From Cyathus striatus (Eukaryota; Basidiomycota; Agaricomycetes; Agaricales; Nidulariaceae): a stretch of 64,000 nucleotides of DNA. Positions within the stretch are counted from its first letter, which is position 1; each line of letters begins with the position of its first letter. The translations under genes and the position numbers were made by a program. The notes under the pieces were generated by a model. The model saw nothing but the letters and a program-made list of their open reading frames with translations, searched no databases and was not told the origin of the DNA. The stretch covers positions 2,914,001-2,978,000 of the forward strand of contig JAOVFP010000007.1 of NCBI GenBank assembly GCA_025738555.1. The letters run 5' to 3'. This document shows, one piece after another, positions 31,387 to 48,800 of this stretch.

Positions 31387-31636
31387 ATGTCCACGCTCAA
31401 TTCCTCTCACCCGACCTTCACTGGTCAAACTGTTCTCCTAACTGGTGCGACCTCAGGTATAGGATATGCAGCCGCTCTTCACTTCCTTGAACAGGACGTA
31501 GGCACGCTTGTTATCACGGCGCGTACTCAATCCAAAGGCGAAGAAGCGAAGGCCCGTCTTGTACAAGAATCCGGAGTCAACACGAAGAAAGTCGTCGTGT
31601 ACGAACTCAACCTCGAATTGACGGAGTCCGTAGTTT

Positions 31637-32720
31637 TGATATGGAGACTTTTAATTTGATAAGAGAACAGTTCAGTCAGAGATTACAAATCCAGTCAGAA
31701 TAGCACGTACCTCGATGATCTTGGGCTTGAGAGCTGGGGTTAAGTCCCGCACTGCCAGCTAAAAATATGTAAATACATATCTATCAAGGGAATAAAGCAT
31801 CAATACAATATTATAAAGATCAGAGGAGGATACGAAGTATATAACTGACTAAGGACAAGTAATACTAGTACTGGAAGGATTCCTTTGTATAAATAATAAC
31901 TACATCTCTTGCAAGACAGCGAAAGGCGGGCACTGATGCGAGGTTAGAACTAGAGACGATAGCAAGGTGGTGATACTGCACCGACTAGCAAGCATCTATA
32001 GATAGAGAAATCAACTGGGACAATATTAGTTTATGATTAATGAAAGGGTGCGCGTGCACACGGAGATAACGCATATCATCAGCGCGAGAACTGAGCGCTC
32101 GGCACAGTTCACTGGGAATAGTCGTACGCGCCTCGCGCAGTATTGCGCGTGGAACGCATCAGCGGGGACCTGGTATCTACGCATGCTAGAGTCACGGCTT
32201 GTCGCGGGTTATTGAATAAGACAGGCACAGGTTGGATTTTGATATTGTATAATAAATGCATATGTAGTTTATCTAAAATAGATAAGATATGTACGTTACA
32301 GTTTGATTGTGTCACATAGTTATCATATATATAAGTCTCGATGTAGGAATAGAAAAAGCAAGTACCGCATGACAGCAGTATTTCCATTCCCCACAGACAG
32401 GGTAGCGCTACAGACAGACCAGACATCGTTTTGATTAGATAACCGAGATAATCGAGTACAGATAAGACAACGGTTGTGATTAGATAACGAGATAATCGAG
32501 TATGCGAAGTGTATGCAAGCATTTTGAGATAGAAACTGTCCACTGTCCGTTTACTTACACAGAATATATCATATAAATTTGAACCGTTTACACTCTCGAC
32601 CTTTAAAAAGACTATTGCGAGTAACTCAGATAGTATTGATAAGAATAGTAATCATAAACATATATTGTGTAGTAGTACTATTACTAACAAATTACCTGTA
32701 TACACGAAGTAGCATCATCA
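31637..32720 (+). repeat. 5' LTR
   Basis: 1084 bp, TGATATGGAG...GCATCATCA. It differs from the 3' LTR at about three positions (a C/T near 31705, an A/G near 31752 and a one-base indel near 31925). CpG dinucleotides are frequent, for example in 32040-32215, unlike in pol. Confidence 0.95.
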
Positions 32721-32722
32721 TC

Positions 32723-32740
32723 TGGAGCCCACCACGAGGG
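32723..32740 (+). other. primer-binding site
   Basis: TGGAGCCCACC starts two bases after the 5' LTR. It begins with TGG, complementary to a tRNA CCA end, and would pair with a tRNA ending GGTGGGCTCCA. Which tRNA this is was not determined. Confidence 0.6.
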
Positions 32741-32862
32741 GGTGAGGGTTCAAATTAGTTTTAGATATTCAAATGGACAGACAGATGGCGAGAAAACGAG
32801 AACGAACGAAGAGATAAAAATAGATTTTTGACATTTGATATCGATCAGACAGACTTGACAGT

Positions 32863-34833
32863 GTGGCAAGCTCAAATAAATTCAAAGCACAAATGACGCG
32901 CACATCACAGAAAGCAGGGACAGAACAACAGCTTACCCCACCTCGGAAACGAAGGGCAGATAGATTAAATCAGCCAACTTTAGAGGAAAATAATAACACG
33001 GGATCTAGTCAAGTGATATCAGTAACCGAGCCCGTAGATTTGAACGCGCGGAGTTTAGTTGAACAAAACAAGACGACCCTGAACGTACCAGGCGCTTTCT
33101 CCGGTCCATCAGACTCTGATTCCGAAGTCGAAGATCAATTATTGAGTGACTTGTATTACTTGAGAATACATAGTGATGAAAATCTGGCAGAAGAATTACC
33201 AACAAGTGAGCTAGAAACAGTAAGAGAAATTGAAATACCACAGCATAGTCCTAGCCCCTCAGTAGTAGCACCAAAGCCTGTAGAAATAATGACAAGCACA
33301 TTGCCATCACCTACCAGTAGGGATAGTCCAAAGTGGGATGGAGTGGCAAATAACCTAAAACAATGGTTGAGACAACTAAAGATTTTGTACATTCACCATG
33401 GAGAAACAAACAGTAAAAGGAAAATTCAGCATGCACTAGGGTGTATTATGGACTGTGATTTGGCAGATGAAGTAGAAGCTTTCACAGAATCTAAAGAGGA
33501 TGATTGGGAAAAATTTAGGAAGAGATTGCTAATGGAATATGATCCAGAGGGAGGAGAAAAGCATGGGTCTGTAGAAAATTTAGAGAAAATTGTGGCGACC
33601 TACCGGCCAATTCCTGTAGGTGAATACAGAGAATGGAAAAAATTCAAACGGGAGTTCAATGAAGAAGCAGATAGATGTAAAAGTTCCAAAAATGGGGCTT
33701 TAATATCTAACCGTTCTTTAGTGGGACTACTAAGTGAAGTGTTCCATAATTCACTAAGGGAAAAAGTTGATACACAACTTACTATGGTAGATATGATGAA
33801 TACCAATGCTGCAACAGAGAGACCTAGGGAAGATCCATATAAATTAGAGGAAGTGGTGAAAGCTGTAGACAAAATAATGAGTTTAAGTCCATTGGGAGGT
33901 TCTGCACTTATGCAAGCACCTGCTAGGGAAACTAAAAACATAAGTAAGCAAGAGGTGATGGATAGTTCAATTGCAGCAGAGACAAGGCTGGCAACAGCAC
34001 AAATGACAAAGGAATGGGACTCTGTGAAGAAAGAGATTAAAGAACTATTACAGAGTCTGCAGATGACTCAGAATGTGCAACAGACTCCTCAACAGTACTG
34101 ACCTACACCTCCAAATAATTGGCAACAGCCAACAACTTACCAGTTCCGAGGACCACCAGCACAAAGTGGAGGATATGGGGGGTATAATGGAAATAATATC
34201 CGAACAAACTGTTGGTACTGTGGGAATTGTCCTGAGCACATGATGAATTGCAGAGTGCGGGCTAAAGATATTCAGGATGGAGTGGTTCGTGAAGGTCCAA
34301 GTGGTCGATTAGTCATGGGAAGCAGTGGAATGTATATTCCACGAGTTGAAGGCCAGCCAATGAGAAGAGAAATTGAGCGCCTACTAAAAGAATCAGAAGT
34401 GAGTTCTACAGGAGTGGATAAGGGTAAAGCCCCTGCAGTAATGATGCAGAGGACACCAATTGAGAATGGGGTAGATGCAGGAGTAGTGCTTGATAAAATG
34501 TTGGAAGCACCTGTCACATTGTCACAGCATGAGTTATTAGCACTAGCACCAGTACTTAGAGCTGATCTACAAGGACGTTTAGTGACAAAGCGAACAATAA
34601 TGGGAAGAGAAAATCAGCAGATAAAAAAGGTACACTTTGAAAAACCAAGCAAAGCTGTACCAGTACCAAAGCAGGCTGAAGAGCACTTGAAGATGCAGGA
34701 CTTAGCACCAGCAAAGAAGGAGCGAAAAGAGTGGACAAACAAGGAAACTGGCCAGAAGAGAAAAGTTTGGCGGGTAAGTGATCCTGTTAGTTTATATCTT
34801 GAGAGTCTTCCAAAGCATAAGCATGAAGAGTAA
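32863..34833 (+). pseudogene. gag: retrotransposon gag, one in-frame TGA
   Basis: The frame runs 32863-34833 with a single internal TGA at 34099-34101. The upstream part is a charged capsid-like protein with WDGVANNLKQWLRQLKILYI and EYREWKKFKREFNEEADRCK, typical of gypsy Gag. Beyond the TGA a Gln/Pro/Gly/Asn-rich linker leads to a cysteine-histidine cluster (CWYCGNCPEHMMNC) that resembles a CCHC zinc knuckle with altered spacing. The first codon of the open frame is GTG, where an ATG would be expected (GTGGCAAGC), and the first ATG is at 32893, so the original start may be mutated. The frame closes with TAA at 34831-34833 but is in phase with the protease downstream. Confidence 0.8.
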
Positions 34834-35298
34834 GTTCTGGATTATGAGGCAAGAGAGTCAGAACCCTTAAGGTGTATTAGGGGATTAGTAAATGGAACCA
34901 AGGAACAGGAAGCACTTCTTGATAGTGGCTCACAGATAATTTCTATGAGTAAAAAGAAGGCAGTGGAATGTGGTGTTAGTTGGGATCCGAGTATTAAGAT
35001 AAAAATACAAAGTGCAAATGGAGGTTATGAAGCATCGCTAGGACTAGCACGCAATGTACCTTTTAAAATAAACTCAATTACTGTACTTTTACAAATACAC
35101 ATTCTAACTGACCCACCTTATGAATTGTTACTTGGAAGGCCATTTGATGCATTAACTGAAAGTCAGTACAATAATGAGTGTGATGGAGGTCTTTTTGTTA
35201 TTATAAAAGATCCACAGACAGATCAGAAAATTGTCTTATCCACATATGAGCAGGGACAGACACCTATAGGACAAGAAGACAGCCAAAATTTTCATTAA
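34834..35298 (+). pseudogene. retrotransposon aspartic protease region
   Basis: In the same phase as gag, separated only by a TAA. It contains ALLDSGSQIISM, a retropepsin-type D(S/T)G active site, and later ELLLGRPFD, typical of the second half of retropepsins. The enzyme would cleave Gag-Pol. Shortly before the TAA at 35296-35298 the family-like sequence moves to another frame (RRQPKFSLIDDLVEDQGE), so a small indel near 35250-35290 separates it from pol. Confidence 0.75.
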
Positions 35299-35299
35299 T

Positions 35300-38200
35300 C
35301 GATGATTTGGTCGAAGACCAAGGAGAGCTAGCATTAGTATACACATATGAGAAATCAGGGATGGTTATATTGAATGGATATTATACACCAGAAAACAAAA
35401 AGAAATTTAAAGGAGATGAATTGAAGTGTGCATTCCTAGTTGAACAAGCACGAGATGGTCTGATGGAAAATAAAAAAATGGAAAGTTTCTTTATGAGTTT
35501 GTTACCAGATGACTTAGCTACAAAGGCACAAACAGAGTCAGTATATACACAGGAGGAGTCTGATTTAAAGGACACCTGAGATTGTTTTACTGGTAAAAAG
35601 TATAAGCCAGTAGCACTAAAAGTGAGACCTGTGTTGATAGAGTTACCAAAGGAGTTTTACATAAAAAGAAAGATATTAGGTGATCCTTTGAAAGGAATGC
35701 CTGAGTTACCTACAAATCCACCAGAGTGGATACCAAGAAAGAGATATACCCAAGAACATATGGAAGCAATGGACAAAGCACATAAGGAGGATTTCTTGCA
35801 GCCTGAAGAATGGAAACTGATGCACCATATGATTGGAGAACAGGAGGAAGCTTTTGCATGGAATGACACACAAAGAGGAACATTTAAAGAGGAGTTCTTT
35901 CCTCCTGTAAAAATTCCCACTGTGCCACATGTTCCATGGGTAATAAAGAATATTCCTATTCCACCAGCACTGAATGAGGAAGTCTGTAACATAATCAGGT
36001 CAAAGATTGAGAGCGGAGTATATGAGCCTTCAAATGCTTCATATAGATCCAAATGGTTTTGTGTAATAAAGAAAGATGGTAAAAATCTGCGGTTAGTACA
36101 TAGTCTGGAACCATTGAACAAGATAACAATTGCTCACTCAGGTTTACCACCTGCTACTGAGGAGTTGGCCAATCATTTTGCAGGAAGGGCATGTGGAGGA
36201 ATTCTTGACCTATATGTAGGGTATGATGAAAGATCGCTAGCTGAAATGTCAAGAGACCTAACTACGTTTCAGACACCATTTGGGGCATTGCAATTAGTCA
36301 CTTTACCAATGGGCTGGACCAACTCTGTACCTATATTCCATGATGATGTTACATTTATATTGCAAGATGAAGTACCAGAGTATACAAAACCATACATTGA
36401 TGATTGTCCAATTCGTGGCCCAGCAACTAGATATGAGTTATCAGGAGGTGGATATGAGACTATCCCAGACAATAAGGGCATTAGACGATTTGTATGGGAA
36501 CATATGCAGAATGTAAACAGGATCTTACAGCGCATGAAATATAGTGGTGGAACATTTTCTGGCAAGAAGTCAATTATCTGTGCAGATGAGTTTGAGGTGG
36601 TAGGTTATAAATGTTCATATGAAGGACGGAGGCCAACAGCTAAGGCAAGTGATTCAGTACTTACCTGGGTAAAATGTGAGAATCATAGCCAAGTTAGATC
36701 CTTCCTTGGAACAGTTGTACAAGCTAGACATCACATACCTAAGTTTGTTGACTTAGCAGCACCATTGTATAATATGTTACGTAAAAACATGCCATTTAGA
36801 TGGGAATATGCAGAACAGAAGTCAATGGATGTCTTGAAAGAAGCAGTAAAGAATAACTTACCAATTCGAAACCCTGATTACAAGAGTAAACAGCCATTGG
36901 TATTAGCAGTAGACACATCCTACATAGCAGCTGGCTGGGTGATATACCAAAGAGATGAGATTGATCCATCAAAGATTCATTATGTAAAATTTGGATCTAA
37001 GTCATTAACAGAAAGACAATCTAGATATTCACAACCAAAGCGGGAGCTATTAGGACTGTGAATGGTACTTGAGGAGGAACAGTATTTGCTATTTGGTTGT
37101 AGAAATTTAGTAGTAGAAACAGATGCAAAGTATCTATCAGGAATGTTAGATAATGCAGGAAAAATGCCTAATGCAACAATTAATCGCTGGGTAGATTTTA
37201 TATGCACCAATTTCTTCTTCACATTAGTACATAAGGCTGGTAAAACTTTTGGACCAGATGGATTGTCTAGACGACCTCCTGCACCTACTGATCCAACAAA
37301 CTGGAAATTTAATGATGAGTCTGATGATGATGACAAACCTTACCCCATGGAAAAATCAAGCCCAACAGACCCAGATCCACTACCTCTAGAAGAGTTCTTA
37401 GCGGATATTGATACTAGGACAGGTTTTATGATGGCAGAGGTACCAAGTGATTTCACAGATGAGTTAGTAGAAGCCAAGGAGAGTTGGGAACGTGAGTGGG
37501 AGATCAAACAGAGAATAATGGCAGATCCAGCATGTCCTGAAGAAAAACAAGCTTTCCTCAGTCAATTTATAAATATTGCTATAGTACCTGAGAAAATGAC
37601 TTACTGGGCACCCTATCCAGAGGAACACCGAACAACATTGGCTAAAGACAGAGACAATCGAATTGAATTAGTTAAAAACTGGTTTAAAGACACAGCAGTA
37701 CAACCTAAGGAAATGAACAATAGTGAGTGGAAGAACTTTAAGAAATTTGCAAGGCATTATTTTCTAGATGATGGGAAATTATACTTGCATGACTTAGAAG
37801 GTGAACACAAATTATATATTGAAAAACCTTACAGGATGTATATGATGCAAGCATCACATGATGCCCTGGGACACAGAGGTACTTATGCAACCAGTCAATT
37901 AATATTAAATTGATTTTGGTGGCCTCAAGTTGAACAAGATGTTGAGTGGTATGTCCAAACTTGTGATGAATGTCAGAAGCGTCAAAGGGCACTTTTTGAG
38001 ACCCCTCCAGTATTAACTGAGACTCCTTCAATATTCCAAACACTACATGCAGATACTATGAACATGGCGGGAGAAGTGTCAAAAGGCTGTAAATATATTG
38101 TCCATGGACGATGTGCATTATCATCATGGCCAGAAGCGCGAGCATTAACAAAAGAAAATGCTGGTACTATAGGTCAATGGTTATTTGAGGATGTAATATG

Positions 38201-39179
38201 CCGCTGGGGATGTATACAGAAAATTGTAACTGATAATGGTACACCTTTTAAGAAAGCGCTTAAATGGTTGGAAGACAAGTACCATATAACTACAATTACA
38301 ATTTCACCATATAATTCACGGGCTAATGGAATCATTGAACGACCTCATTGGGACATAAGACAAATGCTAATGAAAGCTTCAGCACCTGACTTTAAGAAAT
38401 GGTATTACTTCCTGCACCATGTACTATGGGCAGATTGAATAACTGTGAGAAAATGAATGGGATGTTCACCTTATTTCATGGTGACAGGAGCACATCCAGT
38501 CATGCCTTTAGATCTAAAGGAAGCAACATGGTTAGTTAACCCACCATCAGGTATAATCCCAACTGCAGAGTTAATTGGTCTGCGTGCGAAAGCATTAGCA
38601 AAACATACATACCATGTTGAGGAAATGCAAGCAAGATTGACTGAAGATAAGATTAAGCGATTAGAAAATTTAGAAAAAACCATTGAGCATAAAGTCAAAG
38701 AATGGGTCTTTAACCAAGGTGATCTAGTTTTGATGAGAAGTCCACAGATTGGTAAATTATCAAATCAAAAGAATAAATACTGATATAATGGACCTTATGT
38801 AGTAATTGCACGAGCGGCAGGTGGAAGTTATGTTTTAGCAGAACTGAATGGGGCTACATTACATAAGAAAGTGGCCAGAGTCAGAGTAGTACCATACTAT
38901 GTGCGAGAACACATTGATTTACCTGACAATCTACAAGATATCATAGACTTATCAGAAGATGGGTTAAAAGAATTACTAAGTGAAGCTGAGCCTGAAGATA
39001 GTATGTGTAACGATATAGAGGATTTAATATTCTCTAAAGTACGACTCAATTCAACAAGGGACAATAGTATCAATGAGATAACAGCAATTGATGAACCAGA
39101 TGAACACAATTCAGATCAAGAGGAAGAAGAAACTGGAATTCAATTGCCACATAGGTACAATTTAAGAAAGCAACAGTAA
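35300..39179 (+). pseudogene. pol: retrotransposon pol: RT, RNase H, integrase
   Basis: One reading phase runs from about 35300 to TAA at 39177-39179, broken by TGA codons at 35577, 37059, 37911, 38436, 38454 and 38781. The reverse transcriptase includes YRSKWFCVIKKDGKNLRLV, FQTPFGALQLVTLPMGWTNS and the catalytic YIDD (about 36390). RNase H follows with LAVDTSYIAAGWVIYQ and VVETDAKYLSGML. Integrase shows a zinc-binding HxxxH...CxxC region (AL GHRGTYAT... CDECQKRQ), then HADTM, VTDNGTPFKKAL and ANGIIERPHWD as the D,D,E core, then YFMVTGAHP. The coding DNA is strikingly poor in CpG. Its product would copy and integrate the element; as written it is interrupted six times. Confidence 0.9.
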
Positions 39180-39376
39180 TTGAATAGCGAACAATGATGT
39201 AATAGAAGGCAATTTAAAACTAATACATTGCATCGCTATCTAAAGACAAACAATGGTAAATAATGAATGACAGGTAACATATGATGGGGAAAAAGGAATG
39301 ATGGCTATTGATATCAAAGATGAGCAGGGTAATGGAAAAGGAGAAAAGTGACTCACTGGTAGAGTAACGGGATAGT

Positions 39377-39837
39377 TTAACCTGCAATATGAGTTAGTCA
39401 TAAAGAAATGGAATAAAGAAAAAGAAACGCTTACACATCCAAGGGAACCAATCCTCTTTGAGCCATAGCCACTGGGTCCACAAGGAAGGAAGTGAGGGTC
39501 GGTGGAAGATGTGTGCCTTTTCAATGAGGAGCCACCCTATGCGCTCACCATTCAAGAGAATGGTGTATTGCTGATACTCAACACCTGCTTGACCCTTTGG
39601 TGAGTAGGTCATGGGGGAGCCTGTGTCTTTGAGAGACAGCACTCGCTCATTAGGAAGTGTCACAGTGGGAGTTGGCTCTTCCAGCAGATCCTCTGGACCA
39701 TCCACAATGAAAGTAGGATAGCGTTTTTCAGACTCTAACCGTGCAAGCCGGTCAGGTTCTGGGTTGACAAGGGAAAGTTGGAAAGCGGTGGAGATGAGTG
39801 ACTTGGTAATGACTGGACTAGATGAGGGTGAAGACAT
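39377..39837 (-). CDS. antisense gene D inside the retrotransposon
   Basis: On the strand opposite gag-pol, a frame starts at 39837 (MSSPSSSPVITKSLISTAFQ) and runs to a GTAAGC donor. A predicted intron (39382-39434, GTAAGC...GACTAAC...TTGCAG) joins 39837-39435 to a short exon ending in TAA at 39377-39379, giving 135 residues. Content is acidic with VDGPEDLLEEPTPTVTLP and a Trp-rich end (LWTQWLWLKEDWFPWMC). No known domain, signal peptide or membrane segment is visible. It is the last of four reverse-strand genes downstream of pol. Confidence 0.6.
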
Positions 39838-40022
39838 GATGAGAATAATGGAAAAAGATGCAGGATGACAAATAGGTGAAGTCTGAGAAGTTACGATAAA
39901 GAACTGGAAGTGAGAAAGTACAGCATGTGATCACACTTTAAGGCAAGTAAAAAAGGGCAAACAAGTGCACAAATAATGATAAATAGTTATTTGACTATAT
40001 ATGGTAAAGATAATATGATGAG

Positions 40023-40568
40023 CTAAAAGTATGGTACGGAATCATTCAGTTGGGAATCGTCATTTGGGTCAAATAACCAAGGCGATAGTGCTTCACTTTC
40101 GCTAACTGTTAAAAAAAAAAAAAAAAAAAATTTAATTAGATTAGCATAAGAAAATGAGGATATATGAAAGAAAAGAGGGGACTTACAGTAGGAATTGCGG
40201 AAAAACGACTGCCAGGCACTGGGTTGGCGCCATGGGAATTGCTTGCGATAGCGGGAATTACCCTGTAAAACCCATAACGAACCAACAAAAGACCGGTTCC
40301 AGTAAATGCAAAACTCGGTCCACACTGCATTGTTCTTTGACAGTAGCAAACTGCCACTAGGGTAGAAGAACAATTCGCCCCCCTTGCAGATGGATGTTTG
40401 ACCGGAGTAATGAAAAAGAAATGAGGGATCTTCGGTTCGGAATGAGAGACAAGGAAGAACATGTGGTAATGCAATCTCATTGGGGAGGAATACACAGACT
40501 GGAGTCTTCAAGTAATATGATAAGATGTCGGTGAGAGAGCGAGGGTAACAAACGACAGAGGAGAACAT
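40023..40568 (-). CDS. antisense gene C inside the retrotransposon
   Basis: Predicted exons 40568-40187 and 40105-40023 give 154 residues. The 81 nt intron has GTAAGT, CTAAT branch-like words and an uninterrupted T19-T20 tract before AACAG. The N-terminal part is rich in aromatic residues (VCYPRSLTDILSYYLKTPVC, FHYSGQTSICKGGELFFYPS). The C-terminal exon is acidic (SESEALSPWLFDPNDDSQ). No family is recognised. The splice junction closes the frame exactly at a TAG. Confidence 0.6.
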   Translation of the reverse strand: MFSSVVCYPRSLTDILSYYLKTPVCVFLPNEIALPHVLPCLSFRTEDPSFLFHYSGQTSICKGGELFFYPSGSLLLSKNNAVWTEFCIYWNRSFVGSLWVLQGNSRYRKQFPWRQPSAWQSFFRNSYCKSPLFFHISSFSYANLIKFFFFFFLTVSESEALSPWLFDPNDDSQLNDSVPYF

Positions 40569-41103
40569 GGTGGGACAAACGAAAAGGAAAGGCAGGATGA
40601 AGTGCAAGAACTCAGAGCAGTGTTTAAATAACGGGGAACTTAGTCTGACATCGGCAGCCATCAAGAACCCTGAGTTGGTTCGGATCATATCTAATGTATT
40701 AGGCAGACCCTTATTATTTGGTCTAAAGAAATTTAGACTATGCTATTACTAAAAATGGGTGCTAATCACATTATGTAATACCCAAGGGAATGAATATCCA
40801 TATCAAATATAGTTGGAAGACCCTTATCAACAGATTAACGGGCATTTAGACTATGTTGTCAAGGGGCGAGCATTGATAAACTGGCTACTGATGATTAATA
40901 ATAAAATAATGGTAATTGCATTGGATATAGAAGGCAATGATAAGTTACAAGTGCAGTAGGATATAACTAATCTACTGAGTAAGTGTAACCAAGAACCTCT
41001 ACATCATCAATGTATCGGTTACCCAGGACAGGGACTCTATAGAAAAGGTCATGAGTATGAGAATAAAAAAATAAAAATAAAAAATATGCATAGAAAAACA
41101 TAC

Positions 41104-42373
41104 CTACATAGCACTAGAAGACAAGGAAAGGCGCTCCAAGTCAGCATAGGCACTCTTAGCAGCAAGGACTTGTTGCTCTACATTCGAAACGGCCTCCAAC
41201 AAATGGGCAGACCGTTGAATAATGACAGCATCACAATAGCTGATTGTTTGAGCTGGCTGCTCAGGGTAGCGGCGTCCCTCAATGGTAGCCAAGACATTCA
41301 AGGCCCATTTCCGAAGGTCTGGAAAGTCTATACAAAGTATTAAAATAAGTAAAGGACATAAAAATAAAATAAAAAGGATGAAATATGAATACACACGAGG
41401 AAAAAGTAGCTCCAAACGAGCTTTCTTGCGGCCAGACAACTGCACGAACATTACATAAGCTGGGCTGGTTTTGTCCAATTTAGGTAGTGCCTTGTAGGGC
41501 AGACATACCGTCTCGGGACGAGCTACAGCAGTTTTGCCCTATAATAAAAAGAAGAGAATGAGAAACAGACTTAGAAAAATGTTATAAAATAAGCGCACTT
41601 TGTCAATAGTATGTGAGCCATCATTAGAATCGTCAATAAGCATTGACATATCGAGGTGGGGCTATAATATCATAATAAAAACTTGGTACAAGAAAAGAGG
41701 ATGTAATCAAGGTACTTACCTCGGCACCCTCCCCATCAATAATAGTGGTAATTGATGCGCTGCCTTTGCTAGCTAAAAACTCTTCATCTGATTCGCTAAG
41801 GATGACATTGGCAGACTTGTGAGAACGAGTGGTAGGCTGGGTAAATAAAAATAAAATGAAAAGGGGAGTGAGCAAACGAAACAAAAATAAAAATAAAAAA
41901 GAGAAAGAATTACGACATACACGGGAGCGTTTAGCAGACATGACAACTTCAACAATTGGAGCTTTGCTGTTACAAACACGCTGAACATTGGTACACATCA
42001 GGCAAACACTGTTGTAATAGGGAACGGGCAGCACAAATTGTTTGTTGGATTTTTGCTCAAATATATGATAAAGTTTACAAAAGGAAAACATTAATTCAGT
42101 AAAATCGGTTTCACTGAAGACCTCAGGGTGTGTATCATGGAAGGCCAGGATACGAGCCTATGAACAAATGTAATCAGTTATGAGACAGGTATAAAATAAA
42201 AATAAAAACAGATAATAACGACATACGAGCTCGATGTGCAGAGGATCAAGAGTCAGGGCTTTATAATCAAGCCCATCGTTCAAAATCCGAATAAAGGACC
42301 CAATTTGGTCATGAAGACTGTGGCAGGAGCCTAAGAATACGAGATGACTAGAATAAGTTTCAGTGGAAGACAT
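41104..42373 (-). CDS. antisense gene B inside the retrotransposon, 6 exons
   Basis: Predicted exons 42373-42227, 42157-41921, 41836-41720, 41661-41599, 41538-41397 and 41327-41104 give 309 residues. All five introns (58-78 nt) have GT...AG ends and T-rich bodies, several with TTTTTATTTTTATTTT. The frame stays open throughout, which is strong evidence for a real spliced gene. The start MSSTETYSSHLVFLGSCHSL is followed by a cysteine group (VCLMCTNVQRVC, ~100-111), an acidic patch (SESDEEF), a basic patch (SGRKKARLEL) and a helical C-terminus likely to form a coiled coil (HLLEAVSNVEQQVLAAKSAY). No known domain is recognised. Confidence 0.7.
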
Positions 42374-42832
42374 AGCTCATGAACAAATATTCTGAGACAT
42401 ACCTCTACTATTATCTCCAGTTAAATACTTTTTCAGACTCTGAGTTACATCTGCTATCAGTACAAGATAGGACTACAGTTGAGATGTAGAATTGATAGTA
42501 TACAATGCAGAGTACCATAAGGATAAATTCATTTTATGGAGGCACAGGCACGGACAGCAAGTACGGCCACATGCATTATCAGAAAAGCCGAATTTTATTG
42601 AACTATATCCCCTTCCAACCATTCAATACAATCCCCCTTCAACCGAGGGCGGTTGATATCTATTTGTTGGGGGGAGGGAAATAGCCTAGGGCTACGAAGA
42701 ATTTTATTCTTTTAGAACAAGTTTTAAGGGAAGCCAAAGAAATGCTTATTGCACGTCTTATTTGAACAAATGTATCATAGGAATAAGCAGCGAAAAATAT
42801 GTAACAAAATATGTAATAAACTAGATAACTGT

Positions 42833-43687
42833 TTAGCCTGAAGACGGCATACGTCTGCATCCTGAACCACGAGTAGCACGACGGCCACGAATAGACGAAG
42901 CACGATGAGAGGTGCGTGACGAACGAAGACCTGTGGCATCAAGAGGAGGTGTGAGGTTGTAATCAGACACCGTCTCAAAATAACCAGGAGGGACTTGGGT
43001 ACCACTAACCCCAAACCCCTCCTGAGCAGACAAAATAGCAGGGGAGACACCGATAGCTTGAATATCAGATGTAGTGGCAGCAATAAAAAACTCTTCGAGG
43101 ATCAAGAGTGTCGAAGGGGTCATTACACCTTGACGGACAGTGTCGGCGAGAGTGAACATCCGAGTTAGGTCACCAGCACTAACACCTTCAGCGACAAGAC
43201 CACGAGAACGGAGTCCGGTGATACCGCCGAGTTGCCGAAAAGCTTCTCGAAATGTGTGCACAAGGTCGAGGAGGTAGAATGTATATTTTGCAAGCTGAAG
43301 GTTGCCAAGTACGGTAAATAGCTGTAGCGAGCGCTGAGCTTCAGCTACTACGAGTAATCGTTGAGTGATAACAAAGAGGAATAAAAGAAAAACAAGAAAT
43401 TAGAAAATAAAGAAAAATAAAAATAAAAATGGGTACTCACTTTGACCTAGAATGTCGGTCTGAGGGTGAGGATAAACCGGTACTCGCACATTAGAGGGAT
43501 CATCTAGGGTGAAGTCACATTGAAATGAATCCGGGAGGCGAGAGCATGTAATACACGGTTCTCCAACAATATTCGGGCGGACAATACATGGCCTATCATT
43601 GCGGACACAGCGGTTGCATTGGCGAGCGCTGCGAGTGGGACGAGCATCGAGTTTGAGGAGCTCCTGAATGGTATGACGAACATCCAT
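42833..43687 (-). CDS. antisense gene A: zinc-cluster-like protein in the retrotransposon
   Basis: Predicted exons 43687-43441 and 43347-42833 give 253 residues; the 93 nt intron has GTGAGT...TCGTAG ends and a T-rich body. Residues ~24-57 contain CNRCVRNDRPC and, ten residues on, CITC plus a final C eight residues later. This C-x2-C-x6-C-x10-C-x2-C-x8-C spacing fits the fungal Zn(II)2Cys6 binuclear cluster, although basic residues are fewer than usual. The middle is helical (FREAFRQLGGITGLRSRGL) and the C-terminus strongly basic (RSSRTSHRASSIRGRRATRG). A nucleic-acid-binding regulator encoded by the element is plausible but inferred. It is the first gene of the antisense block, nearest the 3' LTR. 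Confidence 0.7.
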
Positions 43688-43739
43688 GACAGTTGACCTA
43701 GAAAATAAAATAAGGAAGGTCATAATGACCACTCAAAGG

Positions 43740-44147
43740 AAGATTCAACAATGACACTTATGAGGCAAAAAGGGAATAAAATTGAATTGGGGGAAGTGAT
43801 AGAAATGAGGCAAAGTTTCGATATCACAGACTACCAACTTATGAGATAATAAAGAACAAGGTTCGATAAGATTAACTGGCAATGCTTACCTAGGCGAGCA
43901 CCACCATGCCGTCAAGTTACACTGCCCAGTTATGATATTTGAGAAAATGGTGGTGCACCAAATAACGAATCCCAAATGGAGACAGACCGAATATTTGGGA
44001 GCCATTAATCATGGAAATAACACCTAGAGTTGACTATAATTCTCTGGGACAGATGCAGGGGTCAGGTCGAGACAAGCGCAGAATTATCACGAATCGCTAG
44101 TTGCACTAGAAATTAAAACTTCGACTGAGGACAGTCGTTTATTCGCT
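43740..44147. other. non-coding gap before the 3' LTR
   Basis: No reading frame is supported. By position it would hold the promoter of the antisense genes. Confidence 0.35.
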
Positions 44148-44156
44148 GGGGGGAGA
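44148..44156 (+). other. polypurine tract
   Basis: GGGGGGAGA directly abuts the 3' LTR, where the plus-strand primer of an LTR retrotransposon is expected. Confidence 0.7.
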
Positions 44157-45239
44157 TGATATGGAGACTTTTAATTTGATAAGAGAACAGTTCAGTCAGA
44201 GATTACAAATCCAGTCAGAATAGCATGTACCTCGATGATCTTGGGCTTGAGAGCTGGGGTTAAGTCCCGCGCTGCCAGCTAAAAATATGTAAATACATAT
44301 CTATCAAGGGAATAAAGCATCAATACAATATTATAAAGATCAGAGGAGGATACGAAGTATATAACTGACTAAGGACAAGTAATACTAGTACTGGAAGGAT
44401 TCCTTTGTATAAATAATAACTACATCTCTTGCAAGACAGCGAAAGCGGGCACTGATGCGAGGTTAGAACTAGAGACGATAGCAAGGTGGTGATACTGCAC
44501 CGACTAGCAAGCATCTATAGATAGAGAAATCAACTGGGACAATATTAGTTTATGATTAATGAAAGGGTGCGCGTGCACACGGAGATAACGCATATCATCA
44601 GCGCGAGAACTGAGCGCTCGGCACAGTTCACTGGGAATAGTCGTACGCGCCTCGCGCAGTATTGCGCGTGGAACGCATCAGCGGGGACCTGGTATCTACG
44701 CATGCTAGAGTCACGGCTTGTCGCGGGTTATTGAATAAGACAGGCACAGGTTGGATTTTGATATTGTATAATAAATGCATATGTAGTTTATCTAAAATAG
44801 ATAAGATATGTACGTTACAGTTTGATTGTGTCACATAGTTATCATATATATAAGTCTCGATGTAGGAATAGAAAAAGCAAGTACCGCATGACAGCAGTAT
44901 TTCCATTCCCCACAGACAGGGTAGCGCTACAGACAGACCAGACATCGTTTTGATTAGATAACCGAGATAATCGAGTACAGATAAGACAACGGTTGTGATT
45001 AGATAACGAGATAATCGAGTATGCGAAGTGTATGCAAGCATTTTGAGATAGAAACTGTCCACTGTCCGTTTACTTACACAGAATATATCATATAAATTTG
45101 AACCGTTTACACTCTCGACCTTTAAAAAGACTATTGCGAGTAACTCAGATAGTATTGATAAGAATAGTAATCATAAACATATATTGTGTAGTAGTACTAT
45201 TACTAACAAATTACCTGTATACACGAAGTAGCATCATCA
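44157..45239 (+). repeat. 3' LTR
   Basis: 1083 bp, nearly identical to the 5' LTR (about three differences). It is followed at once by GTTT and the second part of the dehydrogenase gene. Confidence 0.95.
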
Positions 45240-45860
45240 GTTTCATTCGTTGACAAACTGGGAAGAGACTACGCAAAGGCATTGGATGCTGTCGTCCTTA
45301 ATGCAGGGATGTTTAGTTTCGCATTTGAGGTAGTCGACTCGGGGAACGAGAAGAACTTACAAGTGAACTATCTTTCTAACGCTCTTCTGCTATTCCTCCT
45401 GCTCCCTCTTCTGCGCCAACCTGGGGAGGAAAAGGGGAACGTACCACATATTACGATTGTGGGCTCGCAGATGCTCGCTAAAGCCCCTCTCATTCCTCTC
45501 CTTCCCCTCTCCGGATCGATCTTCGAGTACCTCAACAACCCCAACGCGCCCAATAAGACAAGCAGCGGACGATATGCAGACACTAAGCTCCTCGTTATGC
45601 TTCTATTTCGACACATATCCACCCTCGTAAACGCAGAACGCGTGGTGATCAACGCTCTCTGCCCAGGTGCGGTAAAAGGAACGAATCTAGCTCGCCGTGT
45701 TCCGTACCTCCTCAAGCCTTTCGTAACCTTATATCAGATGGTAGCGATGAGTCCGCGGGATATAGGAGAAGCGTCGTGGGAGGTTCCGTTTACCGTTAGT
45801 AATAAGGCGGGGAAAGAGACACATGGGGAGTTGTTAGTTAGGTCACAGGCAAAAGAGTGA

Positions 45861-48800
45861 GCTCGATTCCTCAACGGTGTTTTTGATGGTGATGGCTAAT
45901 TGAGGCGATGGAAGGTTACCCTCGTTCATAGATACGGAAGTTGGAAAGAAGACGGTTAGCAAGTTGTGGAAGGAGACTGTAGATTGGTGTGAGGAGATTG
46001 CTCCTGGTTGTGTTCGTGCTGCGGGTGTTGTTTGAGGGTTGTTTTGACTCGTTATTGGTTGATGTACATGTTGACATTGGACAAGATGTACATATTGATT
46101 GTTGCTTTGAAGTTTTAAGTCTTGCTACAAGACATCAGAAAAAAGCGCACGGCTTAATCCTTTTATTATTCATACAATACCATTACAAGGCATTAAAATA
46201 ATGGTGTAACGATAAAATATGCATACAATAGTTTCTGGTCAATGCAATGCCATACAATTATTGAACTTCCATACAATACACATGTAATAATTTCTTCCCA
46301 TTTCAATCTTTTTGCAAGGGATCTTTCAATGAGAGTGAAAGTCATTTTATTGAACTTGAGCCGGTACATGTTCAATTAAATAATTCCTACTCATTATGTA
46401 CCAATGACTATGTAAACTTTGTAAAGCACACGAAAAAAATCATACCAATGTCGTCACCTAATAATTATCTTATCTTATTCCCGCTACCTTTTAAGGTAGT
46501 AGGGTTATGTAGGGTGATGAAAAACCAAACTTTGCAGAGTGAACACCTCCCATCAACCGGAGTTTAAACGAGTTCGAAATATCGGTCATTCCCGTATCCC
46601 AACTGCTCAGAACCGCTTTCTCCTAACTGTCTCCACCGCACCGTTGAAGACAACGAAGATAAGAGTTCCTTTGTAAGTATTTTTTAACTTGCATCATCAC
46701 TTTCACTATGTTCAGTAGTATGTTTCATTATCTTGTATGTCTCAGAACACTTTATGAGATATGCATCAGGACTTAACTGGCGATAGAACCACTCCACAAG
46801 TCCACTGTACTTAAGTAATTTATGTTTGGTTTATGTACGTAGTTGCCCTCATGAATTGCCTTGTGATGCATGCGCATGTGATCCTTGTTTCGACAAGTTT
46901 TTGGCCTTTTGCACTGTTGAGATTTCACACCATGTTCATTGTCGACAAAATGTTTATAGACCAGAGCATGTTGTAGCTTGTGGGCCTTACTCAGCGAATA
47001 GAAGCGAAGCTACTTTGCTAAGCTTGGGTATAATATTCTAAGGATGAGTGGAATTTAACTGGAGTCATTAACAATAACTTTAGGCGACATTTTCATGAAA
47101 ATTGATTTAAACAGGATATACCTTTCAATTAACTTTCACTGATATGCCTACTTACGCACTTTCAACAAATCTAAATACATATATTATACATTTATTCCCA
47201 CTACCTTTTAAGGTAGTTGGGTTTTAAGGGGATGGTGGTTTCCTTTAGAAGGAAATTCCAGATTCCATGCCTTTTCCGGTTCATGATTGGCTGTTGTTGT
47301 ACGTTTTCGAAATGTCACAGAAAGTCACCTACTCTGACCTACTCCATCCCACCATCTATAATACACTGCATTTGTTACCCAAAATGAAGCCCTTTTCCGT
47401 GTGCGTGACATGCCAGTGGTGTTTATAAGTGTACCGAGCGCACAATATGCCGTCGTATACACCAGCTTTCGTTACATTTTCAGTTTCTTTTTGATACTGC
47501 TAAAGAATATTTCCGATAACGGTCATCATTGTCGCTATCCGAGACTTTCACGGTTCTATTCCTTTTCAGCGGCACGGCCCCGGGACATATTGCACGTGGA
47601 ACCGTTTGTTGTCGTTAACCCAATGTTAACTGGTAGTCACAGACTTGGACGTTTCTGTGTCTTCGTTGTTTACTTCGTGTATATTTCTCTGTGTTTTGCT
47701 TATTATTGTCAACCTTACCTTCCATTCGTATCCTTTTCATAGTCCTGTCAGCATGTTATCTACATTTATTAAAATGTTATTAATGCATTTTTATCCTTTT
47801 ACGACGGGTTCCTATCAATGAACGTATCAAGCGAATCCTTGCTCGTCTTGAGGATTCCAACTTGTAGCTACATGTACCACTGAACTAAGTGGCACTGCGT
47901 TACGTTGGCGTTACAGTTATTTAATATTACCCCATACTTATTACTCCTCGGTGAACATGTCATCTGTAGTGAAGGTATCCGATAACAACCTCTTTTTCAC
48001 CTCGGATGGTGATTTTTTACAGGCCAGTACATCCATTGCCAATATCTCGGATACCCTTCTTTCCTTCTGAACCGACATGCCTATGCTTTCCTTCTTGCGA
48101 TATTCAACCGGTACATACATCATTACATTTACTATTTATCATATATGTCCTATAAAAATTGTAATTATCTCGTGTTCATTCCCCTACTCCAACTATATCA
48201 CCATTGTAACTTTAAGGTAGTGGGCTATGCCGCTTGCCGGCCCTACTTCTTTATCTTACACTATCTCAACCTATCTCAGCTTTGAGTGTGAGAACTTAGA
48301 GGCTGGCGGGGTTCGAGTTCAACTTCAAGCTCCGGTATAAAAGATCCAGACCGTCCCGTTTGTAACTTGTCATTGACCGCGTGATGTCCTGTGAATGTTT
48401 TTCATGTCGTCCGACATCGCTTGAGTTGACACTCTCCCTGGAAGTTATACTTATTACACGCAGATTCAACGTGGGGGTTCAGTCTATTTTCAACTACAAT
48501 CGCCAACGTTTATTAATTTATTATTCAAATGCGAGTTGGTCACCTCTCTCTCGAAATTCTATTACTAATACATTCCTCTATACCTGGTAGGTGTACATCC
48601 GGTACTTATTATGAGCATCTTCTTCTACACCTTCTAGTATTTACCGCTGGAAGTTACTTAACTGTATATGAAAAGCCGCAGGGCTTCGCGGTAGAATCTC
48701 CTCTGAAACGTCTCCCGCGATCATAGGTCTCTATTGCGCATGTTCTCTTAGAATGGAGTACTTGCTACGTTATTCTTTGGTTGTTCTTGCGTAACGGAGT

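Follow-up and report, generated by a model that had tools for sequence, protein, structure and literature searches.

Several spliced antisense genes, a zinc-cluster-like protein, and a conserved CGG dyad in a Ty3/gypsy element of Cyathus striatus

The stretch of Cyathus striatus DNA analyzed here (the window: 64,000 nucleotides, C7:2914001-2978000, contig JAOVFP010000007.1) contains a Ty3/gypsy retrotransposon in which genes coding on the opposite strand lie between pol and the 3' long terminal repeat (LTR). An earlier note on this DNA had claimed a multi-gene, spliced antisense block inside such an element, and the claim was borne out by the LTRs, a GTTT target-site duplication, an empty partner site, and the models of four genes, A, B, C, and D, named in their order on the minus strand from the 3' LTR inwards. 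Loci are given below by contig and position, and other copies of the element by short labels such as C17 or C4a.

Antisense genes and their introns

The antisense module of the window copy comprises the following features.

43698 to 43889, minus strand: candidate 5' untranslated region (UTR) intron of A, 192 nt, GTAAGC...TTCTAG, read from sequence alone
42833 to 43687, minus strand: gene A, 252 amino acids, exons 43687-43441 and 43344-42833
42641 to 42654, minus strand: dyad AACCG-CCCT-CGGTT (CCG-N4-CGG, everted CGG triplets), starting 281 bases before the ATG of B
41104 to 42373, minus strand: gene B, 309 amino acids, exons 42373-42227, 42157-41921, 41836-41720, 41661-41599, 41538-41397, and 41327-41104
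40023 to 40568, minus strand: gene C, 154 amino acids, exons 40568-40187 and 40105-40023
39394 to 39837, minus strand: gene D, 147 amino acids unspliced, or 135 if a candidate 3' intron (39434-39383) is used

The lengths proposed earlier (253, 309, 154, and 135 residues) agree with these models, A being 252 residues plus the stop and D reaching 135 only with its 3' intron. Nine introns had been counted. Seven coding introns, one in A, five in B, and one in C, are supported by their conservation, while the remaining two, in the 5' UTR of A and at the 3' end of D, were read off the window copy. No known domain was found in B, C, or D. We also considered whether C and D, or A and B, are duplicates of each other and rejected both ideas (hhalign probabilities 0.9% and 0.8%, respectively).

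In the C17 copy, all seven introns have GT..AG ends and keep the frame, and its gene C has one TGA. The C3 copy has an open B with five introns and a C with a frame break near its 3' end; the C intron is retained in C17, C3, and C1. With a spliced aligner written for the purpose, we searched for the window A and B proteins in six diverged elements (C4a, C4b, C17b, C2a, C4c, and C5) and recovered both in all six, at 39-46% protein identity to the window over aligned codons. Frame breaks and stops occur in C4b and C17b, and one frame break in A of C2a; the aligner also added an intron to the weakly conserved A tail of C4b, C17b, and C5. Each of the six diverged elements has five B introns. Introns 1, 4, and 5 lie at residues 49, 188 (189 in C5), and 236 in all seven frame-clean B copies (window, C17, C3, C4a, C2a, C4c, and C5), while introns 2 and 3 shift and are located in a variable, poorly alignable stretch. 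The A intron lies at residue 82-85, in phase 1, in seven of nine copies, the other two being broken copies that were aligned differently. The recent capture suggested by the earlier note thus did not stand: A and B were already present when elements diverged whose proteins are now 39-46% identical.

A profile of A, searched against 5.8 billion proteins, found two annotated proteins, P0001 and P0002, both from Cyathus striatus, the species of the window DNA. P0001 and the A protein of element C4c have 70% identity. A-like as well, P0002 has 409 residues, of which 385-407 match the end of B at 91%, as if its gene model ran from A into B. Single-sequence searches of the window A and B proteins found no homologue among the 5.8 billion proteins, a result that says little because the A profile found the two Cyathus proteins; B was searched there by single sequence only, and C and D were outside that search. 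No match to the A profile was confirmed in the viral contigs searched, and NCBIfam gave no match for P0001, the window B, or D of the copy C3old.

Genomic distribution and selection

Protein searches of the organism's own genome (107 Mb, 24 contigs; match counts are lower bounds) gave at least 44 module loci. When compared with 96 of the 150 integrase matches, 29 of the 44 loci had an integrase match within 4 kb, and in all 29 the module lies downstream of it on the opposite strand. One of the unused integrase matches, C10:3910516, would give a 30th locus in the usual arrangement (C10:3914213, 3.2 kb away). For three of the other 15 loci, the nearest integrase is 6.6-8.8 kb away and the arrangement differs (same strand for two, upstream for one), while the remaining twelve have none of the 96 matches within 12 kb. 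Of the 25 loci with A and/or B, 20 adjoin an integrase, and at 14 of these 20 the gap from integrase to module is 882-973 nt. The locus counts are not all independent, because some C3 and C10 loci mirror each other and resemble two haplotypes.

An ordinary gene locus outside LTR elements, a possibility raised in the earlier note, did not emerge: no intact stand-alone A-D locus was present among the inspected loci without integrase, those inspected being partial or broken, and the 29 integrase-linked loci are all arranged alike. The reading frames, for their part, are conserved between element copies. Two of the five A/B loci without integrase carry stops (C7:3423831 and C11:4007333), and three gave one or two exons; of these five, C1:7211872 is known from its search match alone. 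Neither B nor pol was found in the stretches examined at C7:3423831, and pol was not found in 4-kb stretches near C11:4007333, C7:1194782, and C6:2955235. A search with the Cyathus protein added a sixth A fragment, C3:1947116, with two stops.

The composition of the module varies between elements. Among window-like elements, C17 and C10 carry A-D, C3 carries B-D without most of A, and in C1 both A and the start of B are missing. Past the module, LTR matches were found in the window copy, C17, C10, and C3. Only A and B were found in a second element group, and other elements have only C and D, or C alone. Between the window and C3, the protease and pol are 94-97% alike, while the alignable parts of gag, LTR, and module are 70-87% alike (with a synonymous divergence, dS, of 0.92 in B), a contrast indicating that pol and the remainder have different histories. 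We infer recombination between elements as the simplest cause of this mosaic, which probably arose by template switching.

Codon-level constraint was examined by the Nei-Gojobori method with our own script, in the module elements whose DNA was fetched, leaving out the disrupted B and C of C10 and the absent or nearly absent A of C1 and C3. Fisher's test put nonsynonymous divergence (dN) below dS at p<0.01 for most pairs: A, 34 of 36; B, 44 of 45; C, 9 of 10; and D, 12 of 15. The same copy enters several pairs, which are therefore not independent, and dS is often saturated. Between diverged copies dN/dS is mostly 0.1-0.4, for example, 0.15 for B (window and C3), 0.12 for A (C4a and C2a), 0.21 for C (window and C3), and 0.23 for D (window and C3old). 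The comparison supports purifying selection on A-D across diverged copies, and the hint of selection in the earlier note stands on this basis. Its original ground, that the frames remain open while gag and pol have decayed, is true of the window copy, but the contrast itself does not carry the conclusion: we counted 21 CGA and 7 TGA codons in sense versus 5 and 0 in antisense (Fisher p=0.56), a difference that is not significant because the stop-free antisense frames hold few CGA codons. We therefore dropped this contrast as proof of selection and used the long-term dN/dS.

Protein A, the spacer dyad, and competing explanations

The Zn2Cys6 cluster has the cysteine spacing C-x2-C-x6-C-x5..12-C-x2-C-x6..8-C, and protein A of the window fits it with C-x2-C-x6-C-x10-C-x2-C-x8-C. 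The pattern C-x2-C-x6-C-x10/12-C-x2-C-x8-C is present in all nine spliced A copies (two of them with an internal stop) and in both Cyathus proteins. Zn2Cys6 proteins have a coiled-coil dimerization helix downstream of the cluster; for the Cyathus A homologue a helix is predicted at residues 106-144, but in a model too poor to use, with a predicted local distance difference test (pLDDT) score of 37.8. Most probably, A is a DNA-binding regulator of the zinc-cluster (Zn2Cys6) type that acts as a dimer.

The spacer between A and B contains the everted CGG dyad, with the consensus ARCCG-NCCT-CGGYT, which lies 233-316 bases before the start of B in nine of ten copies examined and is decayed in C10. 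Its arms covary, as in AGCCG-TCCT-CGGCT of C4a. Plain k-mer sharing was indecisive as a spacer test: CCTCGG occurs in six of six spacers, yet 8 of 200 shuffles reach six for some word. The case for the dyad rests on two other results. The best shared 14-mer among five diverged spacers is the dyad, its score being narrowly above the null maximum (45 versus 44; 0 of 300 Markov resamplings). In the genome, the dyad pattern ARCCGNCCTCGGYT has 14 exact matches, compared with 2 for a reversed-pattern control, and six of the 14 lie inside the pre-B spacer of module elements, two of them in elements outside the set that defined the dyad (C4:6083715 and C7:3451782). Three of the exact matches (AGCCGGCCTCGGCT), at C18:191271, 274569, and 286228, have no module locus near them and are possibly host targets or part of another repeat.

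Zn2Cys6 proteins such as Leu3 are described as typically binding CGG pairs, including everted ones (PMC5559640, PMC5082525). Together with the everted dyad, this binding habit makes the action of A on its own module the leading hypothesis. We consider it somewhat probable that the antisense genes form a long-lived accessory module of one Ty3/gypsy lineage, with protein A as a zinc-cluster regulator that acts on the dyad. What was observed is where and on which strand the genes lie, how their exons are arranged, how old they are compared with the divergence of the elements, that they are under selection, and that the dyad recurs; the mechanism we propose goes further. As the genes are antisense to the genomic RNA, their GT-AG introns would read CT-AC there; by established splicing rules, that RNA would not be spliced at them, and they would survive each round of retrotransposition. 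A-D would be transcribed from the antisense strand, spliced, and translated, and A would recognize the dyad between A and B, set the expression of the module, and perhaps thereby tune the balance of antisense to genomic RNA. B, C, and D are selected proteins that would most plausibly support or dose the element's own cycle. The fuller picture, a self-regulating cassette long carried by a fungal gypsy lineage, in which an element-encoded Zn2Cys6-type regulator and its own everted-CGG operator would control spliced accessory genes, is tentative, and we would call it possible rather than probable.

Several observations weigh against this interpretation. The module matched near 11 of the 14 best integrase matches but near only 4 of the next 15, so that it is either patchy or too diverged to see in many relatives. 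Element C3:142486-155593, whose LTRs are 99.8% alike, has lost most of A, and a C8 relative with an open pol frame carries no A-D module; the module is thus not required in cis for every transposition. The closest pair, window and C17, shows no clear constraint (dN/dS 2.7, 0.42, 0.90, and 0.26). A was not matched by the Pfam family Zn_clus PF00172 at E<=1 or then at E<=10, where HMMER filters drop most weak matches, nor by a sequence search of the PDB, and since neither supports membership, we class A as Zn2Cys6-like and not as a family member. Predicted structures were too poor to use (pLDDT 53 for D and 37.8 for the Cyathus A homologue). Both CGG triplets are intact in only five of ten spacers, four others having one or two changes besides the decayed C10, and eight of the 14 exact genomic matches are away from module loci. 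No such dyad turned up when the 450 bases before each of A, C, and D, and the LTRs, were examined. Finally, the covarying arms fit an RNA hairpin with a 5-bp stem and a 4-nt loop as well as they fit a DNA operator.

This last point leads to the alternative that deserves the most attention, although we regard it as unlikely. The module would be real and selected, but A would be no transcription factor: the dyad would act as an RNA stem-loop, such as a 3' end or processing signal of A or part of the 5' leader of B, and the cysteines of A would belong to a different zinc fold, such as one that binds RNA or protein. The arms do change together (AACCG/CGGTT and AGCCG/CGGCT), as those of an RNA stem would, A lacks a Zn_clus match, and the residues between its second and third cysteines are only weakly basic in several copies. 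On the other hand, the cysteine spacing fits Zn2Cys6 exactly, the intact dyad is exactly a CGG pair, and a 5-bp stem is weak. The dyad has decayed in the C8 relative that lacks A-D (four mismatches), yet it is intact in C3, where B is kept and most of A is lost, so that the two cases do not favor one role of the dyad over the other. As an observation on the same C8 relative, its stretch C8:1566601-1570600 retains an approximately 170-base piece of the A-B spacer and a stretch upstream of A.

The other explanations are progressively less credible. It is improbable that the antisense transcripts matter more than the proteins, by RNA silencing or by titration of genomic RNA across the region from pol to the 3' LTR, with the open reading frames (ORFs) as passengers; antisense transcription of LTR elements is described as a regulatory route (PMC7264820), but codon-level constraint on four proteins and conserved introns are unexpected for passengers. 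That a single element recently took up a block of host genes, or that retrotransposons overran an ordinary host locus, is very improbable. The genes do look host-like, being spliced and richer in CpG (0.70 versus 0.26-0.38 in gag/pol), and five A/B loci plus the fragment C3:1947116 have no integrase match. However, A and/or B occupy the same place at 20 integrase-linked loci, six of which were read at 39-46% identity, and the A/B loci without integrase carry stops or gave only one or two exons. We give almost no credence to a gene-prediction artifact of chance ORFs linked by chance GT-AG sites: fungal introns are short, splice sites are common, and the aligner did add introns in the A tail of three copies, but the exons that spliced alignment finds are the same in diverged copies and show dN<dS, and an annotated Cyathus striatus protein matches A.

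Related antisense genes and the element copy

The plant Retand lineage, together with Grande gene23 and RIRE2, is described as having antisense ORFs between pol and the 3' LTR (PMC11963269, PMC7264820). These genes resemble the module in occupying the same slot, in being lineage-wide, and in being predicted to bind DNA and thought to be regulatory. The hosts are plants, whereas the module described here has as many as four genes, with seven coding introns among them, and a dyad that is conserved; the word "intron" is absent from the main text of PMC11963269 and PMC7264820, and TRP28 (PF04195), the domain shared within the Retand lineage, had no match in A-D at E<=1. In fungi, the Ty3/gypsy element Boty/BcGypsy1 of Botrytis cinerea is reported to carry brtn, a single extra gene in antisense (Zhao et al. 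2011, as cited in PMC7264820, PMC8365987, and PMC4227169); its host is an ascomycete, and we set brtn apart on the cited descriptions rather than on sequence. Bdelloid rotifer LTR elements likewise have an additional ORF3 and extra ORFs from spliced messages, and antisense gene sets are not among the features described for them in what we draw on from PMC5408684. Antisense genes of the human T-cell leukemia virus (HTLV) are mentioned in PMC11963269. The deltaretroviral genes (HTLV-1 HBZ and APH-2) are similar in that a regulatory protein comes from the antisense strand of a retroelement, and different in being single genes of vertebrate viruses, a likeness drawn by description only. HTLV-1 HBZ is spliced and a single antisense gene of the basic leucine zipper (bZIP) type. 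With fungal Zn2Cys6 factors such as Leu3, A shares the six-cysteine spacing, next to a CCG-N4-CGG dyad, but it has no family or structure match and lacks the long middle region of typical Zn2Cys6 members.

The general kind is therefore already known, because antisense genes are established in plant gypsy elements and reported in fungal Boty. The earlier note knew of no fungal gypsy element described as having several spliced genes together on its antisense strand; our searches of open-licence PMC papers showed no such description either, although the single antisense gene brtn of Boty qualifies this. In print we did not find a fungal element that combines as many as four spliced genes in antisense with a zinc-cluster-like protein and a dyad that is conserved. 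Intron-bearing, multi-gene cargo can persist for long in a retroelement if it is antisense, and the conserved introns are a direct record of this. If the proposed regulation is true, the element would regulate itself through its own encoded regulator, much like complex retroviruses. These results raise the questions of whether an element-encoded fungal-type regulator binds its own conserved site, what the three selected proteins B, C, and D do for the retrotransposon, and whether plant, fungal, and retroviral antisense accessory genes converge on self-regulation.

The remaining features of the element in the window are as follows.

31637 to 45239, plus strand: Ty3/gypsy element, 13.6 kb
31637 to 32720, plus strand: 5' LTR (TG...CA), preceded by a GTTT target-site copy at 31633-31636
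32839 to 34833, plus strand: gag region, from the ORF list, with two interrupting stops in the window copy
34834 to 39179, plus strand: protease, reverse transcriptase (RT), RNase H, and integrase, in Ty3/gypsy order by Pfam
44157 to 45239, plus strand: 3' LTR, with the polypurine tract GGGGGGAGA before it and GTTT (45240-45243) after it

Paired TG..CA LTRs, a target duplication, a polypurine tract, and the order protease-RT-RNase H-integrase place the element in Ty3/gypsy, by structure and domain order rather than by an RT tree. In Pfam, gag-asp_proteas, RT_RNaseH_2, and Integrase_H2C2 scored above the cut-off, and RVT_1 and rve below it. GTTT borders the element on both sides. At C7:~973.4k, a partner locus without the element has one unbroken GTTT; this locus is on the same contig, and its flanks are 98.7% (right, 1,239 bases) and 92% (left, 636 bases) identical to those of the window element, so the GTTT pair is a target duplication. 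By its sequence, we take the insertion site to be a short-chain-dehydrogenase-like reading frame.

The two LTRs differ by two substitutions and one indel across the 1,076 bases compared. The window gag and pol together have eight internal stops, besides the end of the protease frame and the final stop; four are unique among the copies covering them, and four are each found in one other copy. Six of the eight are in-frame TGA codons in pol, two absent from other copies and four each common to one other copy. With its near-identical LTRs and eight stops, the element looks as if a broken copy had recently been mobilized in trans, or as if the inner part alone had decayed. The observed/expected CpG ratio is highest in the LTRs (1.13), intermediate in the module (0.70), and lowest in gag/pol (0.26-0.38).

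At 35250-35298, the protease and RT frames overlap with a -1 shift. The heptamer A AAT TTT (35286-35292), which we take to be a canonical slippery sequence, directly precedes the TAA of the protease frame, and this TAA is retained in C17 and C3. The arrangement suggests programmed -1 frameshifting between protease and pol.

Beyond the element, an approximately 225-base short interspersed repeat lies at ~46475-46700 of the window; of the 40 matches listed for it, more than 30 are at 80-97%. Pairs of similar loci in mirrored order were also seen between C3 ~6.2-6.7 Mb and C10 ~3.4-4.0 Mb, and between C7 ~0.97-1.02 Mb and ~2.87-2.96 Mb, which suggests that both haplotypes are in the assembly and are partly joined inside one contig.

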